Shown here: one piece after another, positions 20,598 through 44,978 of the stretch
How positions within the stretch are numbered: position 1 is the stretch's first letter
Layout of the letters: each line of letters opens with the position of its first letter
Translations under genes and position numbers: made by a program
Notes under the pieces: generated by a model
The model's database searches: none
Told to the model about the DNA's origin: nothing
What the model saw: only the letters and a program-made list of their open reading frames with translations
NCBI GenBank assembly: GCA_028713125.1
Contig: JAQTOU010000011.1
Location: 1 to 55,052, forward strand
From: Elusimicrobiales bacterium
GTDB lineage: Bacteria > Elusimicrobiota > Elusimicrobia > Elusimicrobiales > UBA9959
Reading direction: 5' to 3'
Length of the DNA: 55,052 bases

Positions 20598-20674
20598 GGG
20601 GTCGTGGTGTAGCTGGTTAACACGTCGCCCTGTCAAGGCGAAGATCGCGGGTTCGAATCCCGTCGACCCCGCCA
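20598..20674 (+). tRNA. tRNA-Asp (GTC), island integration site
   Basis: A 77-base cloverleaf: acceptor stem GGGGTCG/CGACCCC, D-arm GTAGCTGGTTAACAC, anticodon loop CTGTCAA giving GTC, T-arm CGGGTTCGAATCCCG, discriminator G and encoded CCA. The 3' end (from 20666) is the left copy of the 15-bp repeat that bounds the island, so integration rebuilds the tRNA intact. The terminator that would naturally follow is now at 45017-45043. Confidence 0.96.
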
Positions 20675-22156
20675 AATTTTTGAGTCCCGGAATTTGGCAC
20701 AATTTAAGTCCGCTAGAGCGTTTAGCTCCCGCAGTTTCTCCGCCGGAAAAATAAATTTTAATTTTATTTTCTTCCCGCCTATAATTAAGTTCGAACCGAT
20801 ATTTTTCAATATTTGCAGGTTTTCCTCGGGTTTTCCGGAGACTGCGGACTCTCCGGCGTGAACTGCGGTCTTGTAGAAGGCCATAAGCGGTTCGAACCGC
20901 TTACTCCCCTCCCGCTCAAAAGCTGCGAGTTTCATTTCATATTCCTTTTTCTCTTCTATACATGAACGCTTCTTTTGGGCGTATTCATCCTGCGTTATCA
21001 TCCCGCTAAGGATCATGTCCAAAAGAGCGTTCATGTTCTTCGTAAGGAAATCTATTTTATCTCGCAGATTTTGTGCGGCGCTTTCCCCGGCCTGGGCCGC
21101 CTTCAATTCTTCCTTTTTTAGTTTATCAAGAGCATCGGCGGCCAGGGCCGGGGGTAAGGAAACTCCTTTTAATAAGTCGCGTATCTGTTTTTCCACTTCC
21201 TCTTCCCGCACAAAGGGCTCGGAACAGGGGCTCTTGCGCTTGGTGCAATGCAGGTAGTTATGGCCCTTTTGGGTTTCGGTGGTGATGAAGCAGCCGCAAT
21301 TAGCGCAACGGAAAGCGCCCCGGTAGACGTAGGGCTTTAAGGTTTTAGTGTGGGACTTGCTTTTCCTGGCAAGCACCTCCTGGCATTTATCGAAGAGCGC
21401 CTTGGAGATAATGGGCTTATGCTTGCCCTCATAGATCTCCCCATAGTAACGTATAACCCCGTAATACAGCGGATTTTGAAGCATGTAGTGGTAATTCGAT
21501 ACGGACATGACCTTTTTATGCCTGCGCCCTTCCAGGCCAGCGGCGTTTATAAGGCGCCGCACCTCTTTAATGGGGTATTTGCCCGTGGCGTAGAGTTCGA
21601 AGGCTTTCTTGATAAGAGGTGCCTTGGGGCGGTCTACGACAATGGTGTGGGTATTCCGGTCGTTTATATAGCCCATAGGCGCCCAGGCAGGCCAGATGCC
21701 ATTGCGCAGCTTTTGGCGTATGCCGCGCTTAACGTTCTCGGACAGGTTGTCCACGTAATACTTGGACTGGCCGAAAGCGATAGAGAGCATGAATTTGCCC
21801 TGCGGTGTGGGGTCGAACCAAAAGGTGGGGAACTTGAGCGCAAGGACCTTGCCGGTGTCCACCAAATATATCAAGCGGCCACCATCAATGGAGTTACGGC
21901 AAAGCCTGTCAGGGTGCCAGGCGATTATGCCCTGGGCCGCGCCCTGCTCGATGCCGGCGACCATCTCGTTGAATATCTCGCGGCCCGGTTCTTTGGCCGT
22001 TTTGCTCTCAATGAACTCGCGGACAATGGTGAGGCCTTCCTTTCTGGCGTAGTCGCGTAGTTCAGTGAGCTGCGCCTCGATGGACAGGATCTGCCGGTCA
22101 GGCTCGTCCGTGGACTTGCGGGCATAAAGGAAATACCGCATATTAGACTTCTCCAT
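20633..22156 (-). CDS. large serine recombinase (integrase)
   Basis: A 507-residue recombinase. The resolvase catalytic domain is at ~6-150 (nucleophile Ser15 in YARKSTDE, with HPDRLCRNSIDG), the Recombinase domain at ~165-270 (GYINDRNTHTIVVD), the zinc ribbon at ~285-330 (FRCANCGCF...LHCTKRKSPC), and a coiled-coil tail. The ATG at 22156 has a good GGGGAGG site. The last 10 residues (RRDSNPRSSP) are read from tRNA-Asp in antisense, so they come from the host site and not from the element. The native tail, reconstructed from the element's other end, is FQDEVITYFAQHPEVTL. The gene catalyses integration and perhaps inversion at its flanking att cores. Confidence 0.92.
   Translation of the reverse strand: MEKSNMRYFLYARKSTDEPDRQILSIEAQLTELRDYARKEGLTIVREFIESKTAKEPGREIFNEMVAGIEQGAAQGIIAWHPDRLCRNSIDGGRLIYLVDTGKVLALKFPTFWFDPTPQGKFMLSIAFGQSKYYVDNLSENVKRGIRQKLRNGIWPAWAPMGYINDRNTHTIVVDRPKAPLIKKAFELYATGKYPIKEVRRLINAAGLEGRRHKKVMSVSNYHYMLQNPLYYGVIRYYGEIYEGKHKPIISKALFDKCQEVLARKSKSHTKTLKPYVYRGAFRCANCGCFITTETQKGHNYLHCTKRKSPCSEPFVREEEVEKQIRDLLKGVSLPPALAADALDKLKKEELKAAQAGESAAQNLRDKIDFLTKNMNALLDMILSGMITQDEYAQKKRSCIEEKKEYEMKLAAFEREGSKRFEPLMAFYKTAVHAGESAVSGKPEENLQILKNIGSNLIIGGKKIKLKFIFPAEKLRELNALADLNCAKFRDSKIWRGRRDSNPRSSP
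20666..20680 (+). repeat. attL core of the island
   Basis: ACCCCGCCAAATTTT occurs here, at 44979-44993 in the same orientation, and inverted at 22425-22439. It lies within a 28-bp dyad, GCCAAATT-N12-AATTTGGC (20671-20698), a plausible recombinase dimer site. Sequence to the left is tRNA, and to the right is the element's own arm. Confidence 0.88.
20666..20779 (+). repeat. 114-bp inverted repeat, left arm (recombinase 3' end)
   Basis: These 114 bases equal the reverse complement of 22326-22439 with no mismatch that I can see. They contain the att core plus the last ~33 element-encoded codons of the recombinase. Together with the other arm they bracket the recombinase gene, a configuration that permits inversion of 20681-22424. 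Confidence 0.9.
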
Positions 22157-22174
22157 ACCTTGCCTCCCCTTGCT

Positions 22175-22216
22175 CTTAAGGCCGGTTTTGCCCAGCAGGG
22201 CGGAACCGGACTTAAG
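22175..22216. other. hairpin upstream of the recombinase
   Basis: CTTAAGGCCGGTTTTGCCC pairs with GGGCGGAACCGGACTTAAG at 16 of 19 positions around an AGCA loop. It lies just before the recombinase start and could be an operator, a leader hairpin or part of an accessory site. Confidence 0.6.
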
Positions 22217-22243
22217 TGCTATTTCTGCAACTCTGCGCCGCTG

Positions 22244-22283
22244 GTAATTACGGCTTGGCTTAGCAAAGCGAAGCCGTAATTAC
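22244..22283. other. second hairpin upstream of the recombinase
   Basis: GTAATTACGGCTT and AAGCCGTAATTAC form a 13-bp perfect stem, with a further GCTT/AAGC pairing inside. It lies between the first hairpin and the inverted attP copy, in the region that would carry the recombinase promoter. Confidence 0.65.
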
Positions 22284-22325
22284 AGGCGGCCATAAGGACA
22301 ATAATTCGGTTCGCATTTAATCATG

Positions 22326-22439
22326 GGCGGGAAGAAAATAAAATTAAAATTTATTTTTCCGGCGGAGAAACTGCGGGAGCTAAACGCTCTAGCGGACTTA
22401 AATTGTGCCAAATTCCGGGACTCAAAAATTTGGCGGGGT
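22326..22439 (-). repeat. 114-bp inverted repeat, right arm
   Basis: Reverse complement of 20666-20779. It joins directly to the 329-bp cargo repeat at 22440, so 22326-22768 as a whole has the structure of a joined attP in reverse orientation. Confidence 0.9.
22425..22439 (-). repeat. internal inverted att core (attP-like)
   Basis: AAAATTTGGCGGGGT, the reverse complement of the 15-bp core. It is flanked on one side by the arm found at the left end of the island and on the other by the arm found at the right end. That is the arrangement of the excised circle's attP. Confidence 0.88.
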
Positions 22440-22768
22440 TTTCAGGATGAAGTTATAACCTACTTTGCGCAACATCCCGAGGTAACATTATAAGTTCCAC
22501 GCCCCCGCCCAGCCTGGGATCGAAAAGGAGGCCCGATCTTATCCGCGAGATGCCGCACGGTCGGCCACGCAGCGCGGCCGCCCATGCTTCGCCGCTAAGA
22601 AGTGGGTTCGCAAGGCTCGGCACTACGCGCCTTCGCACCTGCTCCCAAGGTGTTCTGCATCTTATCAACACCTCCGATGCGCGGCCGGCCGGCTACAAAC
22701 AGGCCTTGCCCGGCCATACCGTTCGCCGCAGGCGTCCGTACAACGCAGAAAATTATTTCCCGCGCCCA
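22440..22768. repeat. ~330-bp inverted repeat, left copy
   Basis: Near-identical to the reverse complement of 44649-44978. Roughly the 240 bases nearest the att core differ at only a few positions, while a ~50-base GC-rich part is more divergent. It carries the last 17 codons of the native recombinase tail next to the core. Apart from that I see no convincing gene in it. The stretch 22494-22891 holds only this repeat and a GC-rich hairpin region (GGCGGACG...CGTCCGCC near 22833-22880). Confidence 0.9.
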
Positions 22769-22891: not shown

Positions 22892-23296
22892 TTATTGACC
22901 CGGCTCCCAGGAAACAACCGCCCCCGTATGCCCAAGAACTTTCATCACAATACTCGGAAGCTCCATCATACTGTGCGACCCTTTAAGCACAAAGTAATCG
23001 GCGCGGCACTCCGCATATGCCGTAATCTCCGCACTCGGGTCGGAACTAACAATTATCACTGGATATTTTGGCTTTGCTTCACCCTTTTTTAGCGCTATGC
23101 ATACGTCAACTGCATCCCCGTCGCCCAAATGAAAGTCCAGCAGGATACAATCTGGCTTATGCTGTTCCGCCATCCTCACCCCGGCCTTGCAACTGTCGGC
23201 GGTGTGCACGTCGTAATCCTCTTCGCCGAAAAGCCGTTTCACAAGCTTGTGCCAGAACAGATCATCGTCAATAATAAGTATTTTTCGTTTCGCCAT
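22892..23296 (-). CDS. single-domain response regulator
   Basis: About 134 residues from the ATG at 23296, which has an AGGGGG ribosome site and starts directly at the receiver fold. It has an acidic pocket Ile-Asp-Asp-Asp, phospho-acceptor Asp in CILLDFHLGDGDAVD, Ser in VIIVSSDPSAE, and the usual Lys in YFVLKGSHS. There is no output domain. It is the cargo gene nearest the recombinase module and diverges from an XRE regulator. It may be controlled by the hybrid kinase on the same island. Confidence 0.85.
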   Translation of the reverse strand: MAKRKILIIDDDLFWHKLVKRLFGEEDYDVHTADSCKAGVRMAEQHKPDCILLDFHLGDGDAVDVCIALKKGEAKPKYPVIIVSSDPSAEITAYAECRADYFVLKGSHSMMELPSIVMKVLGHTGAVVSWEPGQ

Positions 23297-23414
23297 AGCA
23301 CCCCCTGCGCATAGTATAACAGGCGGCGGCCTCCATGTCAATACCGCTGGTGTGTCCCGCGCGCAGTACTATTAGTGTGTAGACCGAAGGGGGCAGAGGT
23401 TATACAATTCTAAC

Positions 23415-23774
23415 ATGAACACCAGTGATTATCGCTCAAGTATAGGCAAAAGAGTCCGGCAGGAACGTTTGGGACATGGCTGGACGCAGGAAGAGTTGGC
23501 CGAGAAAATAGATCTCCACCCGTCCTTTATAGGCCAGCTAGAGCGAGGGCTCAAGGCCGCAAGTTTCGACACATTGAAGCGCTTAAGCCTTGTTTTCGGC
23601 ATAAAGTCCGCCGAATTTTTGAATGAAGGTGACAGCAAGGAACCTAGCCGCAAAGCTCAATCTGTAGAGCGAAAGATTATAAATCTTCTGAAAGGCTATA
23701 CTGTACACGAACAGGAAGCCGTCTATCAAACCATCAAATACATATTGCGCCAAAAGCGCAAATTGGGCAAATAG
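23415..23774 (+). CDS. XRE-family transcriptional regulator
   Basis: A 119-residue protein with an N-terminal helix-turn-helix of the Cro/C1 type (~10-65): IGKRVRQERLGHGWTQEELAEKIDLHPSFIGQLERG. The C-terminal ~45 residues are helical and basic. It probably binds as a dimer. Its divergent position relative to the response regulator gene, 118 bases away, suggests control of that intergenic region. A role in element maintenance or excision control is possible but unproven. Confidence 0.85.
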   Translation: MNTSDYRSSIGKRVRQERLGHGWTQEELAEKIDLHPSFIGQLERGLKAASFDTLKRLSLVFGIKSAEFLNEGDSKEPSRKAQSVERKIINLLKGYTVHEQEAVYQTIKYILRQKRKLGK

Positions 23775-23940
23775 CCCAAAATCCCCTCATTTAACCGCAG
23801 AGATCATTTATATTGCCGAAATTCGCTTTCGGGGAGGCATGTTTTTCTCTGCTCAGCGGGAATAGTATTTTCCGGATGAAATGATCACGAGCACCATCGG
23901 TTTTGTGGCAGCACACAGCCGCTTGTGCCATATGCTGCTA

Positions 23941-24297
23941 TCATGCCTGTTTATCAAGAAGCTTTTTGGCAAGAACCGTTACGGTAGCCAGGATTATTTC
24001 TGTGTCTTCCGGGTTCTGGTTCTGCAGCAGTTTCAGAAGTTTATTCAAGGCTTTTTGTTTCTCATCCGTAATATTTCGTACGATCTGCTCATCAAACAAT
24101 TCACAAGCAGAAATATCCAGCGCCGCGGCAAGCTTTGCTATGGTGCTCAAGCTGGGCTTCTTTTTATTTGTTTCCAAATAAGCTAGAAAGCTTGTGCTTA
24201 TCCCCGCCGCATCCGCCAGAGCCTCCAGCGTAAGCCCGGCCTGCAATCGTTTAAAGCGCAGTTGCCTGGCGACCGTGGCATAAATATGTATACCCAT
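23941..24297 (-). CDS. second XRE-family transcriptional regulator
   Basis: About 118 residues from the ATG at 24297, preferred over an upstream start because GGAGGG lies nine bases before it. The HTH covers ~7-62: VARQLRFKRLQAGLTLEALADAAGISTSFLAYLETNKKKPS. A helical C-terminus ends LLDKQA. It points away from the histidine kinase gene. The 467-base non-coding stretch between them (24298-24764) contains a dyad over a TATAAT hexamer that could be its operator. Confidence 0.83.
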   Translation of the reverse strand: MGIHIYATVARQLRFKRLQAGLTLEALADAAGISTSFLAYLETNKKKPSLSTIAKLAAALDISACELFDEQIVRNITDEKQKALNKLLKLLQNQNPEDTEIILATVTVLAKKLLDKQA

Positions 24298-24577
24298 AAA
24301 ATATCCCTCCCTAATAGCATAGCGAACGGACTTACGGGAAAGCTCAAGCACGGCTCAAATCAAGTTCAATTAAATCTCTGTATCGTTGAAAAACGGCGGG
24401 CGTAGAAATCGCCCGGGCGTCTATGTCTAAAAAAATACGCTACAAGAAAAGTGATAAGCCGCTGAAAGCGAACTGCCCTTTAATACCTCACCCTGCGTAA
24501 ACTTTATGATATGTCCCCTGTATTTCCCATAATCTATAGGAATAATGATAGTTCTGCAATACACCTGTAGTCATAGG

Positions 24578-24597
24578 TATACATATATGTGTATAAT
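24578..24597 (+). promoter_or_regulatory. dyad overlapping a -10-like hexamer
   Basis: TATACA-N6-TGTATA (24578-24595) overlaps TATAAT at 24592-24597 in the intergenic region between the XRE gene and the kinase gene. No good -35 is seen. The remaining ~440 bases of this gap show no gene. Confidence 0.35.
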
Positions 24598-24764
24598 CGG
24601 AATTAGAAACGAACACCTGGGAGCCGCAGGCGGGCGCCTATACCATGAAAAGGGTATTGAAAATCAAATTTTTATCAAGTAGACTTACATATAATTAATA
24701 ATTATGTAGTGCCGCAAAAAACAAAAGCCCCCTTCCCATTCCCACTGGTCTTTCCTAGATAATT

Positions 24765-26846
24765 ATGTCCGCTGCTAAATTGAAAATACTGGCTATAGAC
24801 GACGGGAAAGACAGCCTGGACGCTTTAGCCGCTGCCGTGAAACACGCTTTCCCCGGCGCCGTATTTTTTCCTGCCCCAAACGGCCTTAGCGGCATAGAAC
24901 TGGCGCTGGCCAAGGATCCGGATATAATCCTGCTCGATATAGTCATGCCGGGAATGGACGGGTTTGAAACATGCAGGCGGCTTAAGGCGGATGCGCGCCT
25001 CAGCCATATTCCCGTCGTCTTTCTGACCGCTCTCAAACCGGACAAGGGCACCTTGGAAAAGGCGTTCGCGGCCGGCGGCGACGCGTTTCTTTTAAAACCC
25101 ATGGAATTGTGGGAATTAACCGCCCAGATACGGACCATGTTGAAAAACAAAGCTGCCAACAACTTACAGCGGACCGACCATGCACAAGTCGGGATCCTGG
25201 TCACGCAGCGCACCCGCGAACTTGCGGACGAACTTGCCGCCCGCGAGAAGGCGCTGGAATCGTCAAAGAAGAGCGAGGAACTGTTCAGGATCATATTTGC
25301 CGAAGCGCCTATAGGTATCGCTTTGATCGACTCCCTGACCGGACATATTTATGAGGTAAACCGCATGTTTGCCGCGATCGTCGGCCGGACCATGAAACAA
25401 ATGCTGGATATCGACTGGATGAGCATCACTCACCCCGACGATGTGCAAAAAGACTTGGATAATATGGCGCTATTGAATACCGGAAAGATAAGCGGATTCC
25501 AGATGGAAAAACGGTACCTCAAACCCGACGGTACGGCTGTCTGGGTCAATATGACGATCGCCCCGGTGAAGATCGGGGATAAAGGCAATCCGCGCCATCT
25601 CTGCCTGGTAGAGGACAAAACCGCGGTCAAGGCCGCCGAACAGGAGAAGTTAAAACTTGAAGAACAGTTCCGCCAGTCACAGAAGATGGAGACGGCCGGC
25701 AACTTGGCCGGCGGTATAGCGCACGACTTCAATAACATATTGACGGCGATCCTGTCTTATAGCGACTTCCTGCTCAAAAATCCGAGCCTGGACGGACCCT
25801 GCCGCGCGGATGTGGAAGAAATAAAAAAAGCGGGGGAACGCGCGACCGCTTTAACGCGCCAGCTCCTGATCTTCAGCCGCAAGCAGGTGCTGCAGCCGAA
25901 AGTGCTGGATTTAAACCAGATCATTCTGGGAGTAAAGACAATGCTCGGCCGCCTCATCGGCGAAAACATAAAATTAACGACGCTTACAAGCAAAGTGCCG
26001 CCGCTTATAAAAGCCGACCCGGGTTATATGGAGCAGGTGCTGCTGAATCTTTCTATCAACGCCCGCGACGCCATGCCGGAAGGGGGTAAGATCACCCTTG
26101 AAGCCTCTATCGTGCGCATGGACGAGGCGCATATCCACCGGCATGGTACTGTCGAGCCTGGCAATTATGTGCTGTTATCCGTCAGCGACACGGGAACCGG
26201 GATGAGCGCGGAGACGCAATCCCATCTCTTTGAGCCTTTCTTTACCACAAAACCGCGCGACAAGGGCACGGGCCTGGGGCTTTCCACGGTCCACGGGATC
26301 GTTAAACAGAGCGGCGGTTCTATAGTTGTGTATAGCGAAGAAGGCCGCGGCACGGTTTTTAAACTCTATTTCCCGCAGGTCGCGGGTAAAGCGGCGGCAG
26401 CCGAACCCCAGGCGGCTGTTGTTAAGAAGATGCTTGCCGGGACCGGAACCGTGCTGCTGGTGGACGATGACAGCTCGCTCCGGGCCCCCATCCGGCGCGC
26501 CCTGACGCTGGCCGGTTTCAACGTCATTGAAGCCTCCAGCGCCGAGGAAGCCCTGGCGGCCTGCAAGAAACAAAAAGAGCGCATTCATCTTCTGTTGACG
26601 GACATGGTGCTGCCTAAAATGAACGGCATCGAACTGGCCGAGCAGGTGGGAGCGCTCCGCCCGGGGATAAAAGTGCTTTTCATGTCCGGCTACACGGACC
26701 ACGCCGTACTAGCTCAGGGCATACTAGACCCGGACCAAAACTTTATCCAGAAACCATTTACACTCGATACGCTTACCCGGAAAACGCAGGAGCTTTGCTC
26801 AACATATTATCCCGTTGAAAAGTCTTCAAAGGCTGGCCGCAAGTAA
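24765..26846 (+). CDS. hybrid sensor histidine kinase (REC-PAS-HK-REC)
   Basis: A 693-residue soluble kinase with no membrane segment. Receiver 1 (~5-125) has Asp-Asp-Gly, ILLDIVMPGMDG and LKPME. A coiled linker follows, then a PAS domain (~165-285, FRIIFAEAPIGIALIDS) and HisKA with phospho-acceptor His in GGIAHDFNNILTAIL (~315). The ATPase domain has NLSINARDAMPEGG, DTGTGM and GTGLGLSTVHGIV. Receiver 2 (~563-685) has VDDDSS, LLTDMVLPKMNG and KPF. An internal receiver at the N-terminus suggests it is itself controlled by another kinase. It heads a run of two further receiver proteins on the same strand. Confidence 0.92.
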   Translation: MSAAKLKILAIDDGKDSLDALAAAVKHAFPGAVFFPAPNGLSGIELALAKDPDIILLDIVMPGMDGFETCRRLKADARLSHIPVVFLTALKPDKGTLEKAFAAGGDAFLLKPMELWELTAQIRTMLKNKAANNLQRTDHAQVGILVTQRTRELADELAAREKALESSKKSEELFRIIFAEAPIGIALIDSLTGHIYEVNRMFAAIVGRTMKQMLDIDWMSITHPDDVQKDLDNMALLNTGKISGFQMEKRYLKPDGTAVWVNMTIAPVKIGDKGNPRHLCLVEDKTAVKAAEQEKLKLEEQFRQSQKMETAGNLAGGIAHDFNNILTAILSYSDFLLKNPSLDGPCRADVEEIKKAGERATALTRQLLIFSRKQVLQPKVLDLNQIILGVKTMLGRLIGENIKLTTLTSKVPPLIKADPGYMEQVLLNLSINARDAMPEGGKITLEASIVRMDEAHIHRHGTVEPGNYVLLSVSDTGTGMSAETQSHLFEPFFTTKPRDKGTGLGLSTVHGIVKQSGGSIVVYSEEGRGTVFKLYFPQVAGKAAAAEPQAAVVKKMLAGTGTVLLVDDDSSLRAPIRRALTLAGFNVIEASSAEEALAACKKQKERIHLLLTDMVLPKMNGIELAEQVGALRPGIKVLFMSGYTDHAVLAQGILDPDQNFIQKPFTLDTLTRKTQELCSTYYPVEKSSKAGRK

Positions 26847-27035
26847 AATCTCCCGGTACCCTATACTCCCCTCCGGTACACGCATCTTAAACCTGATGTC
26901 CGTGGCATAGGTTCTGCGGCCCATAGCCTTATAGGCCATATGTCTCTGTCGGAGATGTGTAACTTATGTTACACTCATGAAGTAGCCGGGGGGCTATATG
27001 CGGGTGAGGGCATCTGGCGGGGTAAGGGGAATAAG

Positions 27036-27383
27036 ATGCCTAGAAGTATCCTTGTTGCCGACGACGATGCAGCCATGCGTGATGTTTATACGCGCATATT
27101 TGCCGCAACTGACCATTTAATTTCACAAGCTTCCAGTTTTGCCGAAGCCGCGCGGCTTATAAATTCCAAAAAATACGATCTGCTGATAACGGACCTGATG
27201 CTCGGGGACGGGCTGGGCACGGACCTGATAAAGATCTTCGAGAGAAACCGGGCAGGCGCCAAAAGCCTGCTCGTGTCAGGCTCCGTTGAGATACTCGCCC
27301 CAGAGCACCGCCCTGACGTGTATTTTGAAAAACCTTTTAAAGTGGAAGTTTTTATGGCCGCTGTCGTCAAGGCTCTGGCATAG
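27036..27383 (+). CDS. single-domain response regulator
   Basis: About 115 residues from the ATG at 27036 (AAGGGGA ribosome site). The longer upstream frame encodes no receiver sequence. Motifs: VADDDAAMRD, phospho-acceptor Asp in LLITDLMLGDGLGTD, Ser in SLLVSGSVE, and Lys in YFEKPFKVE. It is a stand-alone receiver between the hybrid kinase and another receiver, so phosphorelay within this group is likely. Confidence 0.85.
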   Translation: MPRSILVADDDAAMRDVYTRIFAATDHLISQASSFAEAARLINSKKYDLLITDLMLGDGLGTDLIKIFERNRAGAKSLLVSGSVEILAPEHRPDVYFEKPFKVEVFMAAVVKALA

Positions 27384-27421
27384 TCACGGGTTGTGCGGGC
27401 TGCTTAAACTTTTATGAGAAA

Positions 27422-27787
27422 ATGGGGGGTATTATAAAAATACTGCTGATCGAAGATAACGAGCAGACGAGGTATGTTATAAAGTCTTTGTTGCAGAAGC
27501 TCGGGCATGAAATCGTGGGCGAGGCCGAGGACGGGGATAAAGCGGTACAGTATTTCACCAGTTTAAAACCGGACGTGGTCTTTCTTGACCTTATCCTGCC
27601 GGGAAAATCCGGCGTGGAAGTCTTGGAGGATCTCAGGCGCGTGGACCCGAAGACGCGGGTTGTGTTTATAACGGCCGTTGACCAGGAAGAGATATCCCGG
27701 CGGCTTTCCGGCAAGGGCGTTCACGCTATATTGCGCAAACCTTTTTCCTTTGGGGATTTTAAGACACTGATGGCGAGCTTGGCCTGA
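27422..27787 (+). CDS. single-domain response regulator (CheY-like)
   Basis: A 121-residue receiver: LLIEDNEQTR, phospho-acceptor Asp in VVFLDLILPGKSG, Thr in VFITAVDQEE, and Lys in AILRKPFSFGD. It has no output domain. It ends the plus-strand signalling run, after which a 9-bp perfect hairpin (27906-27927) precedes the convergent minus-strand cluster. Confidence 0.88.
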   Translation: MGGIIKILLIEDNEQTRYVIKSLLQKLGHEIVGEAEDGDKAVQYFTSLKPDVVFLDLILPGKSGVEVLEDLRRVDPKTRVVFITAVDQEEISRRLSGKGVHAILRKPFSFGDFKTLMASLA

Positions 27788-28644: not shown

Positions 28645-28941
28645 TCAAAGCGCCGCAAACTCCTCCCGGCGCCGGCGAGGTTTAAAATGGCGTCTATTGT
28701 CCGGCGGGGGGGAAGCCTCCGCCTTCAAGTTTGATAATTCCCTTTCAAGCACCTGGTAGAACCTTTTCCAGTTGGTCGCGCCGGCAAAAGCCCTGTTACC
28801 GTACCTGAACTCATGCGTTTCGCCGGCTGCGGACAGCGTAACCAGAAGCGACAGGTGTTCATCCACCACCGAGCATTCAATGCCCCTGTCGGCGTAGAAG
28901 TCTATTATCTTATGGGCGAAAACTGTTCCTTCACGAAGCAT
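28645..28941 (-). CDS. small hypothetical protein in the DUF4912 cluster
   Basis: A 98-residue protein with a compact alpha/beta N-terminal part (FAHKIIDFYADRGIECSVVDEHLSLLVTLS) and a basic tail rich in Arg. Its start lies within the last codons of the DUF4912 gene (11-base overlap), indicating coupled translation and joint function. Family not recognised. Confidence 0.55.
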   Translation of the reverse strand: MLREGTVFAHKIIDFYADRGIECSVVDEHLSLLVTLSAAGETHEFRYGNRAFAGATNWKRFYQVLERELSNLKAEASPPPDNRRHFKPRRRREEFAAL

Positions 28942-29827
28942 ACTCTACCTCCTTCGACCTTAAATTCTCAGGCTCCGGTTGCGTGGTGCTCCTGGCAACA
29001 CTGATCTCGATCTGCCGGGAATCCCTCTCGTCGTTTGACATCGCTTTTATCGGCAGGTCCATTACGCCGTCCGGCAGGGCGAACCGCATGGAAAAGGTCC
29101 CGTCCGGGTTCAGCTTCACTTTGCGGCCGGAAACGGTCACAAAAGCGTCCGGCTCGGTGGCTCCGTACAGGATAAGTTCACAGTCGGCAACCAGCCAGAA
29201 CTTCTTCTGCTCCGGCTTCTGCGGGGCCTGCGATGACATAGAACTGACACCCCATGAGGCGCCCCGAGAGAACACGGCCCTAAGCATCTCCCAGCGTTGA
29301 GCCAGGGATTTAGCCACTTCGCCCGAGCCCTTGCCGATATACTCAACCCCGGAAAGCTGAAGAAGTTTGTCAAAATCCTCGGAGACCGCCATCCATTTCT
29401 CGTCCATAACGTCCGAAACCCGACCAGGCGGCAGGGTTACCGGGTTGGTCTTTACTATTCCGATAAAATTCCCGTCAGGCAGCGCCAGGCCGAGTTCGCA
29501 ACAATATGATCCTCCGCCGGCTTCAACGTGTATGTACCAATTATTAGCGTCGAGCATTACAGGGACGTCGAAATGTTTTCCGGCATGGCCGTCCACGTGG
29601 GCGATATCGTAGACGCGAAGAACCTGGCGGCCTTTCTCGAATATATCATGCCCATGCTCGCGGGCAAGGCGGGTTTTCGAGTTGGGTGTTATCTCCCAGT
29701 AGACGAACATCCAGTTCGGGTCCCTGGGCATTAAAGCCGCCATTGTTACGCCGTATTCCTGCGGCAGCGCGGCGGACTCTGAGTCCGGTTGAATGTTCTT
29801 ATCTAGGAGCGCTCCTGATGAAGGCAT
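28931..29827 (-). CDS. DUF4912-domain protein
   Basis: A 298-residue protein. Residues ~25-165 match the DUF4912 pattern: MAALMPRDPNWMFVYWEITP, then a strand-rich core (QVLRVYDIAHV, NWYIHVEAGGGSYCCELGLALPDG, IVKTNPVTLPPG). A C-terminal part (~205-285) repeats a small beta-domain pattern (LYGATEPDAFVTVSGRKVKLNPDGTFSMRFALPDG). DUF4912 is often found beside glycogen and glycan enzymes, but none lie here. An AAGGAGGG site precedes the ATG. It leads the four-gene minus-strand cluster. Confidence 0.78.
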   Translation of the reverse strand: MPSSGALLDKNIQPDSESAALPQEYGVTMAALMPRDPNWMFVYWEITPNSKTRLAREHGHDIFEKGRQVLRVYDIAHVDGHAGKHFDVPVMLDANNWYIHVEAGGGSYCCELGLALPDGNFIGIVKTNPVTLPPGRVSDVMDEKWMAVSEDFDKLLQLSGVEYIGKGSGEVAKSLAQRWEMLRAVFSRGASWGVSSMSSQAPQKPEQKKFWLVADCELILYGATEPDAFVTVSGRKVKLNPDGTFSMRFALPDGVMDLPIKAMSNDERDSRQIEISVARSTTQPEPENLRSKEVEYAS

Positions 29828-29837
29828 ATATCCCTCC

Positions 29838-30062
29838 TTATGCCGCTTCGCACAAAAGGCGCATCGAAGTCTTAAGGAGCTGTTCCGCCTTAAGATAATA
29901 GAACGCGCTACGGATGAATTGCCCCGCTATGCATTTTGCGGAACGGGTCTTCCTAAGGCTTGAGCGGCGGCGCCCCGCAGCAGCGCGGCGCCGTTTGTGA
30001 ATGATCCCCATATTTCCCCCTGTAATGATGCGACGACTTCGCCGGCCTTGTGATAAAGACAC
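29838..30062 (-). CDS. possible small basic protein
   Basis: A 74-codon frame (an internal Met gives 57) ending 11 bases before the DUF4912 start. It is very Arg/Lys-rich, with a more protein-like C-terminal half (AGQFIRSAFYYLKAEQLLKTSM). It may be the true first gene of the cluster or merely an open frame in its leader. No recognisable domain. The gap 30063-30306 downstream of the helicase gene contains a weak inverted repeat (AGCCGG...CCGGCT near 30190-30222) and nothing else convincing. Confidence 0.3.
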   Translation of the reverse strand: MSLSQGRRSRRIITGGNMGIIHKRRRAAAGRRRSSLRKTRSAKCIAGQFIRSAFYYLKAEQLLKTSMRLLCEAA

Positions 30063-30306
30063 AAAAGCCGGAAGGTTGTTGATTCAGAATCTCGGCGGTA
30101 AACCGGGATTACAGTTGCGGTATCTAGAACCCTACCCCTAGGAATTCAATATCTACGGTTAGTCTAGTTAAAACGTTCTGCTGATGTCAAGCCGGTTTTC
30201 TGTGAAGTTTTTTCAGCCGGCTGATTTCTCCTTGATGGTCAGTGAATATCGCCAGGATCGCGAAGGCATTAGGTTTAAGTATTAAAGAATTCTTCGATTA
30301 GGCCTC

Positions 30307-32238
30307 TTAACTCGACAATAATCCCATTTCATATAGGAATCGAGAAGGTTTCTTTGGCCAACCAGAGTAATTCCCAGCATAGCTCAGTGTTAACGTGTTA
30401 ATTGTGCGCGTAATAGCAACAAAACAATTTCGGCGTTCCTCCTCCATCTCTGGACTATCAGGTCCCTTCTTTTTGCTCTGAAACGACGGCAATTCATCCT
30501 CTACTAATCCAACTAGATAGACATCGCTAAATTCTTTTCCTTTTGCACCATGAATTGTCATTAACAAAATGGTGTTAGAATGAGGGGCAGCCTCTTTAGA
30601 ATGCATTTGGAGTTCTTGTAGAAATGCTTCAAGAGTAGTATCCTCTCCAAGTGAGGCAGTAATCTCCCTAACTAAATTCTCCCAGACAGTCCTCTCCTCT
30701 GTATATCTAGCATACACCTCCTCTCCAGGCGTAAGATCTTCCGAAACCAACTGGTTAAACCAGGACATTACATCTCGGCTGAATTGTCGGAAGTCTCGTC
30801 CCTCACCCAAAGAACGCCCGGTTTGATCTAGAACTTTCTTTATGACGTCATTAGTCTCCAACCGCTTCACCAGCTTCAACCAATGCTGGAGCAAATCACG
30901 ATTTGCTGCACGCGCCTGCATAACCACTTCTGCCGGATCGACTTCGAGTCCAGTTAATTGAGCGAAGCTTCCACATACTGCTTCAAGATAGCCCTGATTT
31001 TGTCTATCATTTGCGAGCTTAAGTATTGAATGCAGCCATATGAAGGGGGTACTCTCAAACTCATCTTTTCTCTGCATGATTGCGGATGGCAGTTGAAGAC
31101 TATTTAGTGCATTCTGGACACCATCCAAAAGTTTTCTGCTCCGCCCTAATACCGCCACACTCCCTAATGTTTTTAGATGGTGAGTCTGTATATCTTTAGC
31201 AATTCCCAAAGCCTCATCTTCAAATTTTCCGAACCCATCCAGCACTCGCACCACCCCATCACCTTGTGGCGGACGATATGCCTCTAGTGGTTTCTTGTCT
31301 GGAGTTCGCAGAAAATTGTGTTTAATCAAATTATTGGCCAAATCGACAACCTCTGGTGGGCATCGATAATTCATGGGAAGTTGCAGGACTTGTGGGGAAT
31401 AATTAGTAGCAAACTCTTCGAGCCGTTTATGGCTTGCACCATTCCATTGATAAATAATTTGGTCATCGTCAGCGACAATAAACAGGTTCTTATGCTGGTC
31501 TCCAGTTAATGCGCGTAGGAGACTGTATTGAGCATGATTTGTGTCCTGGAATTCATCAACACATATATACGGGTACACAATCCGATATCTTTTTGCTATG
31601 GCTGGGAAATTATTGAACAACTGATATGTTTTCAGAATTAATGAGTTGAAGTCTAATGCATTTCGCTTGGCTAACTCTATCTCGTATGAGGAATATATAA
31701 CCCCCATTCGCTTACCGAAATCCGGATCTTGGAAAACACCTTGTGCTTGTTCAGGGAGTATTAGCATGGACTTCATGCGTTCAATAATAGACAATGTCTC
31801 TTTATCCGCATCGCTGACAATCGGATTTTCTTTTTTTGCACTCTCCACTGCTTCAGACAGAACCGCCTTCAAATCTGGATATTGAGAATAAATTTGAAAA
31901 TTCGGGTTAATGCCGACATGTACCCCATGTTGCCGCAAGACATCAGCGCAAAAGGAGTGGAAGGTCCCCAGAAATAATCGTGTCTCTTGCCCTGGCACAA
32001 GATCCGTTACTCTTGTGCGCATCTCATCTGCGGCCTTAGTGGTAAACGTTAATCCTAGGATACGAAAGTTCTTATCAACACTCTCATCTAGAATTCGCGC
32101 AATCCGACAGGTTAAAACCCGAGTCTTTCCAGACCCAGGGCCAGCCAACACAAGTAGGGAGCCTTCATTCCATTGCGACGCTTCTCGCTGAATAGGATTT
32201 AGACCCGCCCATGCTGCTTTAAATTTTTCAGTGCTCAT
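30307..32238 (-). CDS. gajB: UvrD/Rep-like helicase, Gabija GajB-like
   Basis: A 643-residue SF1A helicase. Walker A GPGSGKT at 33-39, GLTFTTKAADEMRTR (motif Ia), VDEFQDTN (motif II), VADDDQIIYQWNGA (motif III), PMNYRCP (IV), MTIHGAKGKEFSDVYLVG (V) and FVAITRTINTLTLSYAG (VI) are all present. Its ATG directly abuts the stop of the OLD nuclease gene (TAAATG), as expected for the GajA/GajB pair of Gabija anti-phage defence. Known GajB proteins are shorter (~500 residues), so this one keeps more of the canonical UvrD length. A plain repair helicase is less likely given the pairing. Confidence 0.85.
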   Translation of the reverse strand: MSTEKFKAAWAGLNPIQREASQWNEGSLLVLAGPGSGKTRVLTCRIARILDESVDKNFRILGLTFTTKAADEMRTRVTDLVPGQETRLFLGTFHSFCADVLRQHGVHVGINPNFQIYSQYPDLKAVLSEAVESAKKENPIVSDADKETLSIIERMKSMLILPEQAQGVFQDPDFGKRMGVIYSSYEIELAKRNALDFNSLILKTYQLFNNFPAIAKRYRIVYPYICVDEFQDTNHAQYSLLRALTGDQHKNLFIVADDDQIIYQWNGASHKRLEEFATNYSPQVLQLPMNYRCPPEVVDLANNLIKHNFLRTPDKKPLEAYRPPQGDGVVRVLDGFGKFEDEALGIAKDIQTHHLKTLGSVAVLGRSRKLLDGVQNALNSLQLPSAIMQRKDEFESTPFIWLHSILKLANDRQNQGYLEAVCGSFAQLTGLEVDPAEVVMQARAANRDLLQHWLKLVKRLETNDVIKKVLDQTGRSLGEGRDFRQFSRDVMSWFNQLVSEDLTPGEEVYARYTEERTVWENLVREITASLGEDTTLEAFLQELQMHSKEAAPHSNTILLMTIHGAKGKEFSDVYLVGLVEDELPSFQSKKKGPDSPEMEEERRNCFVAITRTINTLTLSYAGNYSGWPKKPSRFLYEMGLLSS

Positions 32239-34161
32239 TTAAGAAGCCCCCACCAAGTCATTAATTATTTTCACAATACTACTTGGAACACGGCTTGAGT
32301 TAGCGCCAGATGCCTTTAAGGAATCAATCAGTGCGGTGGTGTATCCGATTTTATCGCATTGCACTTTTGAAACAATTTCCTTTGTGTATAGCGGGTCTGC
32401 CGGCGCCAAAGAAATTGATTGTCCTTTTGCCCCAATTATTTGAACATATTCCGGAAGAAAGCCGTTTTTTGCAAGAAACATTTCCCACTGCATATTTGGC
32501 TCTGGGAGCTGAAAGACTTGAGTTGCTATGCGAGAAGCAGTTATTCCACGATCCTGGAGTTGTGTCATAAACCCATTTCTGGCAGAGTCATTATCACAAA
32601 TCATTGCCCAAGGAATCTGGAATGCTTCAGCGAGCCCGACAAATGCACCAGGTGATCCATTGTTTTGGTAATCAACTAGCGAAACACCAGTACGGTCAAA
32701 CGGCTTGCCTAGCAATTCCGCAAAATATCGCAACAGTAAATACTCACTCTGTCCCTCACACAGCAACCAAGATCGTGAGAATAATATCTCACCACGAATA
32801 CGTTTAACATATGTATCCAGTTGCCTTAATTCATCTTCTCCCAAATAAGCGCAAGAATCTTCTTTTAAACGTTTTAGTTCTGCATGAACATCTAGCTGTC
32901 CTGGGTAGAGGGTCAGTAGGCTACGATACTCTCTCTCCTCTAATCTGCCACGCACACTTAGTTCTAATTTGGTTATGTTAAATGCGAACTTAGACGGATT
33001 GCCTGCGCAAAAAGTGGCGATACCAGGAATTTGAGGCACTTTCGCCTTAAATACACGTTTTATATACATGACGCGCGAGGAAGCCCCGTTACGACGAAAC
33101 ATTCGTATCTGTGAAAAGTGAAGATCCTGAATAAAGTATGGGGAATGTGTAGACAGAATCTTCTGACTACTAATCTGCGCTAGGCTGGCGGAAAGTGCCC
33201 TCGTGGCTTGTGGATGTAGATGTGCTTCAACCTCATCTAAGGCCAGAATTGCTTCTGTTTCAGGTTTATGCGTGGGTTTAAGCAGAACTTCAAGATATGC
33301 TTGGAATAAAAATAAAACAGCCAGACTTTGCATACCTTGCCCATGCCGATTAAGTGGGAAATCCACTTCGCCGCCGGCTCCACGTATGACTATTTCCGAT
33401 TTTGCCATCAATTCCCATGGCTTCATTGGGATTGCTTGTATAGAGGCGCTGTGTTCTATCCCGACGTTAATTATCTTTTGAACATTATCAAGAGAGGAAC
33501 GGACCTGTTCTAGCCGTGGGTCGGCTGTGAGTAATGTTTCATTGAGCTTTACAAGTTCTTCACTTAATACTTTGCGTTGCTCGTCAGTAATTTTAAGATC
33601 CCGCAGAATTCTGCCCCAAAAAGCAGAGCGTGGAGAAAACTCTTTCTCCGCATCTCGCATAGCAGATAGAGAAAATAGGCGCACATATTCCCAAAAACGA
33701 GAAATATTCGCTGGATTTGCTGCTTTCCCCGATAACGGTTGCCCATCAATAGCAAGAAACTCACATTTCGTAACAAATTGCCTTGAGACAGAATCAAATT
33801 TACTGCTTGTCCTAAAACCAATAGAGTCGATATCGGTTATCGGATCCGTTTGAATAATTTCAGTTAGAGCCTGAACCAAAGATTCCGGCCACTCATCGCT
33901 CACGTCCTCATTGAACCATAACTCTATCGATATGCCCTGGCTTTTCTGAGGAGTATCCCCTGCTTTCTCCATGTGGAAATCATAGTCATCGAAAGCTTGC
34001 GCACGGGAACCCGGGCCACGTGAAAACATCAATTTTAATGCGTCTAATAATGCTGTCTTTCCGGTATTGTTCTCGCCGATAAGAACAATTGTGTCATCCA
34101 CGGGGAAAGCAATATCCACAAGATTGCGAAAATTTTTAATCTTAATTTCTCTAAGTTTCAT
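32239..34161 (-). CDS. gajA: OLD-family ATP-dependent nuclease, Gabija GajA-like
   Basis: A 640-residue class-2 OLD protein. The ABC-type ATPase half has Walker A GENNTGKT at 29-36, a signature-like NRHGQGMQSLAVLF at ~271, Walker B ILALDE at 305-310 and switch His in LSTHSPYF at 339. The C-terminal TOPRIM nuclease has its Glu in LLCEGQSEYLLL (~469) and the Asp pair in ICDNDSARNG (~523/525). In Gabija, GajA nicks DNA when nucleotide levels fall during infection and acts with GajB. The intergenic 34162-34358 upstream could hold its own promoter (TATAAT on the minus strand near 34290) but no strong -35. Confidence 0.88.
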   Translation of the reverse strand: MKLREIKIKNFRNLVDIAFPVDDTIVLIGENNTGKTALLDALKLMFSRGPGSRAQAFDDYDFHMEKAGDTPQKSQGISIELWFNEDVSDEWPESLVQALTEIIQTDPITDIDSIGFRTSSKFDSVSRQFVTKCEFLAIDGQPLSGKAANPANISRFWEYVRLFSLSAMRDAEKEFSPRSAFWGRILRDLKITDEQRKVLSEELVKLNETLLTADPRLEQVRSSLDNVQKIINVGIEHSASIQAIPMKPWELMAKSEIVIRGAGGEVDFPLNRHGQGMQSLAVLFLFQAYLEVLLKPTHKPETEAILALDEVEAHLHPQATRALSASLAQISSQKILSTHSPYFIQDLHFSQIRMFRRNGASSRVMYIKRVFKAKVPQIPGIATFCAGNPSKFAFNITKLELSVRGRLEEREYRSLLTLYPGQLDVHAELKRLKEDSCAYLGEDELRQLDTYVKRIRGEILFSRSWLLCEGQSEYLLLRYFAELLGKPFDRTGVSLVDYQNNGSPGAFVGLAEAFQIPWAMICDNDSARNGFMTQLQDRGITASRIATQVFQLPEPNMQWEMFLAKNGFLPEYVQIIGAKGQSISLAPADPLYTKEIVSKVQCDKIGYTTALIDSLKASGANSSRVPSSIVKIINDLVGAS

Positions 34162-34358
34162 TCTATTTTATGCTTTCCGCGTTTAAAGACTAAAGTGTGC
34201 CACGTTGGGTACTGAAGAGAAAGCTGCTTGTAAAACCCTTATGAGACCTTTCCGGATAATGAAAAATAAAACCCCAAATAATATAGTCAATTATAGACCT
34301 TAATTGGCGTTAATTACCATTAAGGAGATGTCGATACTAATCTCCACTTCCTGAGAGC

Positions 34359-34973
34359 CTAGTCTTTCTTAGTGGGAGCAGCCGGTTTATCTGCTGGTGG
34401 TGGAGTATCTGTAGGGGGCTGGGCTGGTTTAGGGCGTAAAGCTTCCATCCCATTAAGACTTCTGCCCTCGTTCTTCGGGCTCATTTTGTTTAGACCATTA
34501 AGACTATTCTCCAACTTGTCTTCCATACACTTCTCCTTCGTAATTACATGGTTATTTAGATTGATAACTGCTATCCCAAAAGCAAAGACAACCCCGATTC
34601 CAAAAGAAGTTAGTAAGGCTTTATCTAAATAGCACAAGACAGGGTCTCCTGAATCACATTTGCGTTTGTCTGCCGGGCATTCAGAATCTTCTTTAAGTCG
34701 CGTAAGAAACTCTTTGTTCCTTTGAAAAATAAACAGGACTATTATTATAGTGGCCAAAAAAGCCGTAAGAGATATAAAATAAAACAAGAATTCCCATCGC
34801 GTAAATGCTTGTGCCGTTGTCGCTAAAGTGATTAATAGGCCGATTGCACCAGATGCGATATAAAGAATGCTTCTATCTCTCTCCATGCTGGACCCGACCC
34901 AGGCGTCCACTATTGCAGTATAAAACGCGACCTCCTTCTCATTTGCTACATCGCCTTGTTTTGATGGTGACAT
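34359..34973 (-). CDS. three-helix membrane protein of unknown function
   Basis: A 204-residue protein. Membrane helices lie at ~40-60 (ILYIASGAIGLLITLATTA), ~65-87 (FLFYFISLTAFLATIIIVLFIF) and ~118-140 (ALLTSFGIGVVFAFGIAVINL), followed by a flexible Pro/Lys-rich tail of ~60 residues. A small loop holds two Cys. It lies 56 bases after the radical SAM gene and before the Gabija pair, all on one strand. Membrane proteins of this size act as effectors in several abortive-infection systems, but nothing in the sequence proves that here. Confidence 0.65.
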   Translation of the reverse strand: MSPSKQGDVANEKEVAFYTAIVDAWVGSSMERDRSILYIASGAIGLLITLATTAQAFTRWEFLFYFISLTAFLATIIIVLFIFQRNKEFLTRLKEDSECPADKRKCDSGDPVLCYLDKALLTSFGIGVVFAFGIAVINLNNHVITKEKCMEDKLENSLNGLNKMSPKNEGRSLNGMEALRPKPAQPPTDTPPPADKPAAPTKKD

Positions 34974-35029
34974 AAATAAACCATAGGAACTTGCTTCTCA
35001 CTCAAACCCATATTTGCAGAGGCGTTGAT

Positions 35030-36436
35030 TTATGCTTTACAGTGCTTTTTCTTCTTCTCATGGGAAGTAATATTCAGGCTGTAATAATCCAGTTGTGCCA
35101 GCAAATAACGATCCAACTCTGGCTTTTTTAATGACCTGAGATCTGGGGGGGTGATTTTATTTTCAATGTGGTGGTGCTTTATTCGTGTTAAAAATTTAAT
35201 TCTTTCCTGGAACTTGGGGCTCTCCTCAATGCGTGACATAAAGGGGGGCCTTTTGAGATTAAAATATTTATAGGTGTTATTTATCGCACTCCATCGCTCC
35301 ATTTTCTTGTCATATGCAAGTCCTTTCTCCATTGCATACCGAACCCATATGTTATGCTCACGGACCTGGTGGCGGAACAATCTGATATTTTCATCAGTCC
35401 ATCCTGCTTTTTTATGAATATAAAAGCTACCCTCGGGCTGCCCGTTTCTCATATGCGGGCTATAATTATCATAGTCTAGTGTTAAAGGCCGATATCGGCA
35501 GTCGGTAATTTGAACACCCCACTCTTTACATGCCTCTAATTTTGAGACCATCCCCTCATAGGGTGGTTCAAAGTTGTATATCATAAAAACCGAAATATCT
35601 TTAGCCTTGTACCCTGCATTAACCAAAAGGTCCAACTGTCTTTTTATTGAATCTTTATCCTTAGCAGGGCCATCCCATGCTATTCGGATATTTCGGAACC
35701 TGGCCTTTCTAAGTAGTAATGCAAGTTCGGGTATGTTTTCCAGTAAGCGGCCATCGAAACCGCTTTGTGATTCAAATACTACGGGATGCCTTTTAATTCT
35801 TAATTCGCTTAATCCCTGCAAGATCTGCTTGATATCGGGATTATCCAATATATTGTTATCGTAGAAAACAATCTTATTTTTATTGATCGCCTTTAGCTCT
35901 AGCTCTATATCCTTAAAAGACTTGTTTGTTCTTTCAGGTTCAATGCGCCAGGTGCCGCAGAAGGCGCATTTACGCATACATCCCCGCATCATATGTGTAG
36001 CGTGATACTCGACTTTGGAGATTAATGAATAATCCGGGTAGTGTTTCTCGGCGCCTGGGTGAATTCCGGTAAAGACTGTAACATTCGTGGCCTGGCATCT
36101 TTCTATAAACTTTGGATCTTTTGCGAACAAAGTCGCGTAAATGCCGCCGAGTGTTATTTTGGCTTTTGGGAATAATCCCCGATAATGGTCAATACTATCC
36201 CAAACGTGCTTGGACCAATACGTAAATAATGAGGTGACAAGAACTTCGTCAGGGACGAAGTCTATGTCATTCTTGTCCCTATTCCCTCTTACGAGTTTAA
36301 CCTCGTCTCCATTTGCTCTATGCATTTTCCCGAGCTTTAAAAGCCCTAGGGGGACAAAGTTTTTATGCACCGAGCCGGCCTTATTCTTGCTCTTATTGGG
36401 GTAAGGGAAGCTTGGCTCTACTAACAGAATTTTCAT
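35030..36436 (-). CDS. radical SAM protein with B12-binding-like N-terminus
   Basis: A 468-residue protein. Residues 1-~130 have the Rossmann-like pattern of cobalamin-binding radical SAM enzymes (MKILLVEPSFPYP, VPLGLLKLGKMHRANG, VTLGGIYATLF-type strand). The [4Fe-4S] motif Cys153-x3-Cys157-x2-Cys160 (GCMRKCAFC) opens the radical SAM barrel, followed by IVFYDNNILDNP, FESQSGFDGRLL and IRIAWDGPAKD. A ~110-residue C-terminal part is basic. Its start shares one base with the preceding stop (TAATG). The substrate is unknown. It lies in a run of defence-like genes, which is unusual for this enzyme type. Confidence 0.85.
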   Translation of the reverse strand: MKILLVEPSFPYPNKSKNKAGSVHKNFVPLGLLKLGKMHRANGDEVKLVRGNRDKNDIDFVPDEVLVTSLFTYWSKHVWDSIDHYRGLFPKAKITLGGIYATLFAKDPKFIERCQATNVTVFTGIHPGAEKHYPDYSLISKVEYHATHMMRGCMRKCAFCGTWRIEPERTNKSFKDIELELKAINKNKIVFYDNNILDNPDIKQILQGLSELRIKRHPVVFESQSGFDGRLLENIPELALLLRKARFRNIRIAWDGPAKDKDSIKRQLDLLVNAGYKAKDISVFMIYNFEPPYEGMVSKLEACKEWGVQITDCRYRPLTLDYDNYSPHMRNGQPEGSFYIHKKAGWTDENIRLFRHQVREHNIWVRYAMEKGLAYDKKMERWSAINNTYKYFNLKRPPFMSRIEESPKFQERIKFLTRIKHHHIENKITPPDLRSLKKPELDRYLLAQLDYYSLNITSHEKKKKHCKA

Positions 36437-36897
36437 TAGACTTTCTCTGTTGCGCTGTATTTACTGAAGATCTCAAAAAGCATTTGTTTCTGAAGATAAT
36501 CCTTATTCGAAAACTCAAGATGGCAATCATCTCCGACCTTATGAACATATTTCTTGAGACAGGTAGTTTTGAGCAACTCTTCCATCCCGGCATTGGCATA
36601 TGTTTGAAGCCATTTCATTGCTTCCTCTTTGTCCTCTAATAATGTGCGGTTTCCCTTTTCGTTTTCGAGGACAAATAGTGCGTAGAAGCCATTTAACTCA
36701 TCTTGCGAAAAAGTATTAGACCAAAAAAGCTCTTTTTTATTGGTTGTTGGGATCGGCTTTTGCGTTTTATAGCCGAGAAAAACAGCAAGAGCAAAGAGCG
36801 TGTGATACTGACTGAATACTTTGCCGTTTAAGCTCTGATAAATCCCGTAATGCTCTTTTTTTACGTAGACGCGTATTTTTGAAAGGTCATTTGGCAT
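36436..36897 (-). CDS. small protein resembling Dnd-associated protein 4
   Basis: A 153-residue soluble protein. The segment KVFSQYHTLFALAVFLGYKTQKPIP followed by a Trp-containing NTFSQDELNGFYAL and a C-terminal MEELLKTT helix fits, as far as I can judge by eye, the pattern of the small phosphorothioation-associated protein 4 family. It begins 11 bases after the DndD-like gene and shares a base with the radical SAM start. It may be an adaptor for the ATPase. A profile search is needed to confirm the family. Confidence 0.5.
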   Translation of the reverse strand: MPNDLSKIRVYVKKEHYGIYQSLNGKVFSQYHTLFALAVFLGYKTQKPIPTTNKKELFWSNTFSQDELNGFYALFVLENEKGNRTLLEDKEEAMKWLQTYANAGMEELLKTTCLKKYVHKVGDDCHLEFSNKDYLQKQMLFEIFSKYSATEKV

Positions 36898-36908
36898 AAA
36901 TTATATCC

Positions 36909-38942: not shown

Positions 38943-38958
38943 GATTGCTCCGGGAAGA

Positions 38959-39120
38959 TTAGGCTTTAAGTAGTGTTCTCAGGAAACCCTTTAACTCTTC
39001 TGCTACATGTTTTGGATTCCCATGCTTGTCGGCAAGCGAAAAAGCCTCTTTGATCAGCTTTTGGACTTCAGGCGGATATTTCTTGAGTTTCTCATTAATT
39101 AACTTGTTCATCTCAGTCAT
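38959..39120 (-). CDS. 53-residue protein of unknown function
   Basis: A short gene that starts within the end of the helicase gene (8-base overlap) and ends 16 bases before the DndD-like ATG. Translation begins MTEMNKLINEKLKKYPPEVQ and continues as amphipathic helices (KLIKEAFSLADKHGNP, HVAEELKGFLRTLLKA). Tight packing between two operon genes and protein-like composition argue that it is real. It may be a small subunit bridging helicase and ATPase. Confidence 0.6.
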   Translation of the reverse strand: MTEMNKLINEKLKKYPPEVQKLIKEAFSLADKHGNPKHVAEELKGFLRTLLKA

Positions 39121-44648: not shown

Positions 44649-44978
44649 TGGGCGCGGGAAATAATTTTCTGCGTTGTACGGACGCCGAAGGCGGACGGGA
44701 GCGGCCGGGTAAGGCCTGTTTGGGGCCGTCCGGCCGCGCATCGGAGGTGTTGATAAGATGCAGAACACCTTGGGAGCAGGTGCGACGGCGCGTAGTGCCG
44801 AGCCTTGCGAACCCACTTCCTAGCGGCGAAGCATGGGCGGCCGCGCGGCGTGGCCGACCGTGCGGCATCTCGCGGATAAGATCGGGCCTCCTTTTCGATC
44901 CCAGGCTGGGCGGGGGCGTGGAACTTATAATGTTACCTCGGGATGTTGCGCAAAGTAGGTTATAACTTCATCCTGAAA
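44649..44978. repeat. ~330-bp inverted repeat, right copy
   Basis: Partner of 22440-22768 in opposite orientation. It ends exactly at the attR core. The minus strand at its inner end next to the core encodes the native recombinase tail, showing that it is the element's right arm. Confidence 0.9.

Follow-up and report, generated by a model that had tools for sequence, protein, structure and literature searches.

An integrase gene between two inverted attP sites in a tRNA-Asp element of Elusimicrobiales, and a possible link between integration and the integrase C-terminus

Direction control in serine integrases normally requires a separate protein. How integrated elements restrain their integrase is often unclear, and in the element described here the attachment site itself could encode the control. 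For the Dehalococcoides islands found at ssrA, it has been suggested that the serine integrase DsiB, whose gene overlaps attL, may reach full function only when the island is circular or adjoins a second one (McMurdie et al., PMC3146451). In relatives of mycobacteriophage BPs, attP lies within a coding gene and integration alters the C-terminus of its product (PMC4557955). We analysed a contig of 55,052 nucleotides from an Elusimicrobiales bacterium, the whole of which is referred to here as the window, carrying an element in which the 3' end of the integrase gene belongs to the attachment site and an inverted second copy of that site lies upstream of the gene. No description of this two-site layout was found in the open literature, a search in which few subscription journals were covered. 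The mobile elements of Elusimicrobiota and Patescibacteria are little known.

Anatomy of the element and its attachment sites

The integrative element occupies 24.3 kb (20675-44987) in tRNA-Asp, in the order tRNA, R1-integrase-R2 (inverted), L2 (inverted)-cargo-L1, chromosome. Its features are the following.

20598-20674, plus strand: tRNA-Asp(gtc), the integration target (ARAGORN, Rfam); its 3' end is the left half of attL
20666-20779, minus strand: R1 arm, the common core (from 20666) and the last 38 integrase codons; forms attL with the tRNA
20633-22156, minus strand: large serine recombinase (integrase), 507 aa (Pfam Resolvase, Recombinase, Zn_ribbon_recom)
22157-22325, minus strand: upstream region of the integrase, within the putatively invertible segment (self-BLAST)
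22326-22439, plus strand: R2 arm, repeating the integrase 3' end and core in inverted orientation; supplies the right half of the internal attP
22440-22768, plus strand: L2 arm, the remainder of the internal attP, beginning with the native tail codons FQDEVITYFAQHPEVTL and a stop
28931-44163, minus strand: part of the cargo (Pfam, PADLOC)
44649-44978, minus strand: L1 arm, at the far end of the element; inverted copy of L2
44979-45012, plus strand: attR, core ACCCCGCCAAATTTT leading into the chromosome (BLAST to 20666-20699; empty site L374)

A tRNA at one end, a repeated core at the other and an empty site in a relative identify this as a tRNA-targeted integrative element. In that relative (L374) the same tRNA-Asp is joined directly to the element's right flank, and its attB has 34 bp in common with attP. 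The integrase is a large serine recombinase whose Resolvase, Recombinase and zinc-ribbon domains all exceed the Pfam cut-offs; it is the only Recombinase-domain protein (PF07508) in the window, and phmmer matches it to the A118 integrase (4kis/6dnw). An Rfam scan returned tRNAs only.

The preliminary description of this DNA had the recombinase bracketed by a 114-bp perfect inverted repeat, with its last codons read from tRNA-Asp antisense. Both arms were located in that geometry (20666-20779 and 22326-22439), with imperfect similarity running ∼24 bp beyond them (133/138), and the tRNA was found at 20598-20674. The repeat is not a product of chance, given a BLAST E of about 1e-63 and the same arrangement in more than 90 relatives. 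The integrase reads KIWRG followed by RRDSNPRSSP, the latter being tRNA-Asp antisense codons (protein end KIWRGRRDSNPRSSP), and the inner arm reads, in the same frame, KIWRG followed by the native tail FQDEVITYFAQHPEVTL and a stop. The suggestion that inversion would regain this tail is borne out on paper, since inversion in silico, modelled with three different breakpoints within the repeat, gave each time an ORF of 514 aa ending in the native tail; the locus has, in silico, the inverted repeats and the intact product in both orientations that are expected of an invertible switch.

The earlier account of the att cores was correct for the left end and incomplete for the inner arm, which is a whole attP: it continues for ∼330 bp past its core, and this stretch (22440-22768) recurs inverted at 44649-44978, at the far end of the element (BLAST, 95% identity across 364 bp, core included). 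An assembly error is an unlikely source of the internal copy and was rejected because the far L arm is 5% divergent and the layout is seen in many independent assemblies. A nested remnant of a second element was likewise rejected as a general cause, the layout being conserved. True tandem arrays do exist (L230, L240, L223 and contig C15 of the same genome as the window).

G+C drops to about 0.42 over 30-44 kb. The cargo includes the Gabija genes GajB (30307-32238) and GajA (32239-34161), both on the minus strand (Pfam, PADLOC), and beside them a Pbe system, PbeC (36909-38942) and PbeA (39113-41239), also on the minus strand (PADLOC); a DUF4912 protein and further ORFs make up the rest of 28931-44163. 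Among the cargo of relatives are Old-like genes or restriction genes of types II and III. Defence genes (Gabija, Pbe, type I-III restriction, PrrC and Old) travel with the family, which is thus a vehicle for their movement. A cluster of response-regulator and histidine-kinase genes (22892-27787) lies just inside the internal attP. The contig ends, 1-199 and 54854-55052, form a 200-bp inverted repeat of 90% identity and are perhaps the ends of another repeated element that halted assembly.

Conservation of the layout in relatives and in a second lineage

Searches of the family, of the phylum and of Patescibacteria yielded a non-redundant set of 242 related integrases, nearly all from metagenome assemblies; the loci are related, and the counts that follow are not independent. 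tRNA or tmRNA antisense forms the 3' end in 188 of the 242, with nineteen target types, Ser being the commonest. Both Elusimicrobiota and Patescibacteria commonly carry the family. In plasmid and phage collections there were distant relatives only, with identities of some 30% at most in the best matches listed, and viral contigs gave few loci. The genomes of four integrases that are 92-97% identical (L128, L122, L160 and L239) bear the labels Gracilibacteria, Caldisericales, Elusimicrobiota and Parcubacteria, a pattern suggestive of either recent cross-phylum transfer or binning errors.

The layout could be assessed in 104 of the 188 loci, namely those having 400 bp or more of upstream sequence together with a stop codon inside the contig. 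An inverted R arm is present upstream in 93 of these (median 122 bp, about 98.7% identical within the locus) and is diverged or gone in 11. The layout is retained across phyla at integrase identities of 43-95%. The inner boundary of the R arm is conserved, mostly 0-6 or about 13 codons past a GSN motif, and the start of the arm coincides with the last beta-hairpin in the AlphaFold model. The L arm is also repeated, inverted and mostly at 97-100%, 2.5-15 kb away in 18 of 20 relatives for which 12-34 kb of sequence was examined. Many integrases have a contig break 0-500 bp upstream, which is compatible with a long repeat there and is no proof of mixed orientations.

Within a locus the R arms are about 98.8% identical, versus 82.9% to the nearest other locus, and the within-locus value is still 98.9% in the 50 loci without a close relative. 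The arm copies are therefore kept alike, as the within-locus match far exceeds that to the nearest locus although the integrases differ at up to half of their residues. Between paired arms dN/dS is slightly below 1 (75 synonymous and 165 non-synonymous changes). One way to account for complementary R and L arms is that the two inverted attPs pair into a single duplex site on folded single-stranded DNA, by analogy with CTXphi, as both arms would need to be complementary for such pairing and would be kept so by repair of the folded DNA. The arms, however, lie 1.5 kb and 2.5-22 kb apart here and, to our knowledge, no large serine integrase uses folded DNA; we regard this as the remotest of the explanations considered.

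Among the Elusimicrobiota large serine recombinases compared, the layout was found in the clade of the window's integrase and in one other lineage, and no such repeat was seen at about 22 others with enough flank. The second lineage is integrated at miaB (the target being identified by the TFGCQMNEADSE motif) and its integrase is 22% identical to that of the window. It occurs twice in tandem in the window's own genome (G000 contig C15:594000-632400, L392 and L393), the first copy lying in miaB with cargo that includes type I restriction and PrrC. Both C15 elements have the two-site layout with the same R and L arms, the arm match of the second copy having been seen in one comparison and missed by the scripted repeat scan. 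Every large serine recombinase identified in this genome, three in all, thus follows the pattern. A 168-bp stretch of the L arm (22533-22693 in the window) is common to the window element and the second lineage at 79% despite the very divergent integrase, perhaps as a binding region or an RNA.

These comparisons bear on whether the arms have a function at all. The loss or divergence of the arm in 11 of the 104 loci is in keeping with a neutral relic, an ancestral inverted duplication kept alike by gene conversion and without function. Such a relic is nevertheless a very improbable explanation, given that the layout is kept across phyla over the above range of integrase identity with a conserved inner boundary, and that it is present in the second lineage while missing from the other large serine recombinases.

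The upstream attP lies 85-350 bp ahead of the integrase start codon in nearly all loci, which would suit an autoregulatory operator at which bound integrase represses its own gene, the long arms being by-products of duplication and gene conversion; such an operator would also stay intact in the integrated state. Tens of bases would suffice for this purpose, yet a coding R arm of ∼120 bp and long L arms are nearly identical, and upstream sites have recombined with tRNAs. An operator is therefore an improbable account of the layout. A promoter scan performed no better than on shuffled sequence. The stretch from the integrase start to the inner arm contains an imperfect 54-bp palindrome (22237-22290, self-BLAST), and similar palindromes of 48-56 bp are found upstream of the integrase in several relatives.

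Use of the upstream site and the fate of the integrase tail

The upstream site is fused to a tRNA in seven loci, two of which have a tRNA on both sides. The reversed state implied by the preliminary description does exist in related elements: in L239/L133 and L194 a tRNA-Ser lies at the 5' side of the integrase, which has its native tail. Three further loci (L363, L139 and L362) have the 5' tRNA and a gene cut at the contig end. The doubly joined loci are L442, which has like arms and lies between tRNA-Ser(GGA) and tRNA-Ser(GCT), and L064/L100, flanked by tRNA-Ser and tRNA-Glu, whose arms are unlike. The genes adjoining the upstream-joined tRNAs are ordinary chromosomal ones (IPP transferase, ParB and PGM/PMM, for example), which establishes the upstream copy as an attachment site in use. 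Both states thus occur in nature, strongly skewed, with the tRNA at the integrase 3' end in 188 loci versus the upstream site in 7 (2 of the 7 at both). On a circle with two attPs alike over more than 100 bp to either side, the enzyme would be expected to treat both equally, yet the skew is 188 to 7; the reversed state must be either lost or re-mobilised, or flip back.

We propose, at a probability of about one half, that the integrase cassette lies between two complete, inverted attPs, that the choice of site at integration sets the C-terminus of the enzyme, and that the state with the tRNA-derived tail is locked. Each attP consists of an R arm (the last ∼38-45 integrase codons), the core and an L arm (the conserved tail of ∼17 residues and flanking DNA). 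As the core lies inside the gene, the C-terminus is set by whatever joins the attP beside the integrase 3' end. Judging from the arms, the excised circle would give the native tail from both sites; integration via the 3'-side attP, the state of the window, replaces it with tRNA antisense codons, whereas it would be kept if the upstream attP were used instead or the cassette flipped between identical R arms. The native-tail enzyme is most likely the fully active one and the common tRNA-tail state the stable, resting one. Locking of that state would explain the skew between sites that are alike to the enzyme.

The same two states follow whether the excised circle integrates through either inverted attP or the cassette flips between the R arms while integrated, toggling the tail by means of the integrase or homologous recombination. 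The preliminary description favoured such switching while integrated and supposed that the tail might govern the direction of the reaction, a role that is at most conjectural. Perfect arms 1.5 kb apart, an ORF intact in both orientations and the existence of reversed relatives are all compatible with such an in-situ switch, and recurrent recombination between the arms would give their within-locus homogenisation, which inversion could explain, although the data do not require it. Free flipping, however, would be expected to give a ratio nearer 50:50 than 188:7, and the arms differ in both complete reversed loci, L239/L133 and L194 (Fisher test on unlike arms, p = 0.01 with three loci, weakened by the later-found L442 with its like arms). 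Moreover, we know of no standard large-serine-integrase reaction between attL and attP. In-situ switching is thus an unlikely explanation.

A conserved native tail, in frame across the core, favours integration choice. The tails of the upstream copies (74 aligned) follow roughly C-x-L-[DN]-[EK]-[VI]-R-T-[FY]-F-x-x-N-P, and by a loose motif the conserved tail is in frame across the core in 63 of 98 upstream copies, the motif itself having partly served to choose the tails counted; tRNA-derived tails vary in length and sequence. Where an element lies behind another, the integrase reads the neighbour's L arm and retains a tail of the native type, as with L240 and L227, from one genome, and on contig C15. 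By a crude test, pN/pS is 0.54 for the tail motif and 0.69 and 1.14 for the other frames, so that purifying selection on the native tail appears weak, which counts against integration choice as the best explanation. The low confidence of the tail helix in the AlphaFold model of the native-tail enzyme counts against it too. Separately, a 33%-identical serine integrase (L242/L397, G310 C72) shares its terminal sequence, RLLNEIRTFFEENPDSDF, with an element of that genome.

The doubly joined loci L442 and L064 imply that an upstream site reacted after the 3' end had been fused to a tRNA, or that the order was the reverse. They count against a fully locked enzyme, which could only have done so with help in trans.

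More tentatively, and with appreciably less confidence than for the window element itself, these elements may represent a widespread class in which the integrase C-terminus is a built-in commitment switch: loss of the tail would lock the element in and its retention would leave it mobile, and identical arms would permit a later reset by inversion. Two very different serine-integrase lineages have this same design. For integrase engineering, the element is a natural tail-swap experiment.

Comparison with known systems

The CcrA and CcrB enzymes of SCC elements are, like the integrase described here, large serine recombinases that move defence or resistance cargo, and profile similarity between them is weak: the curated SCC models score the integrase at 77.3 bits for CcrB (cut-off 900) and 69.8 bits for CcrA (cut-off 700). 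The SCC target differs, and we know of no SCC integrase cassette placed between inverted att sites. CTXphi, like the window element, has a pair of att sites in inverted orientation (attP1/attP2); it relies, however, on XerCD and a folded single-strand site and has no integrase gene. The integrase of the BPs relatives is of the tyrosine type.

In Rin/Min-type shufflons, inversion exchanges the C-terminus of a gene, as proposed here (PMC6109161). Those systems switch a tail protein (PMC6109161), whereas in the window element it is the recombinase itself that would be switched and the sites are attachment sites. In BPs-type immunity the altered gene encodes the repressor, and there is no inverted second attP (PMC4557955).

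The Dehalococcoides ssrA islands resemble the window element in that the 3' end of a serine integrase gene overlaps attL at an RNA gene, the C-terminus varies and islands accrete in tandem (PMC3146451). They differ in having direct repeats of the ssrA end only; the term 'inverted repeat' appears nowhere in the text and no second, upstream attP is described (PMC3146451). They target ssrA with a DsiB-like integrase and a DsiA partner, while the window element, whose integrase is likened to DsiB by description, targets tRNA-Asp. The DsiB islands are the nearest precedent for an effect of integration on the integrase tail.
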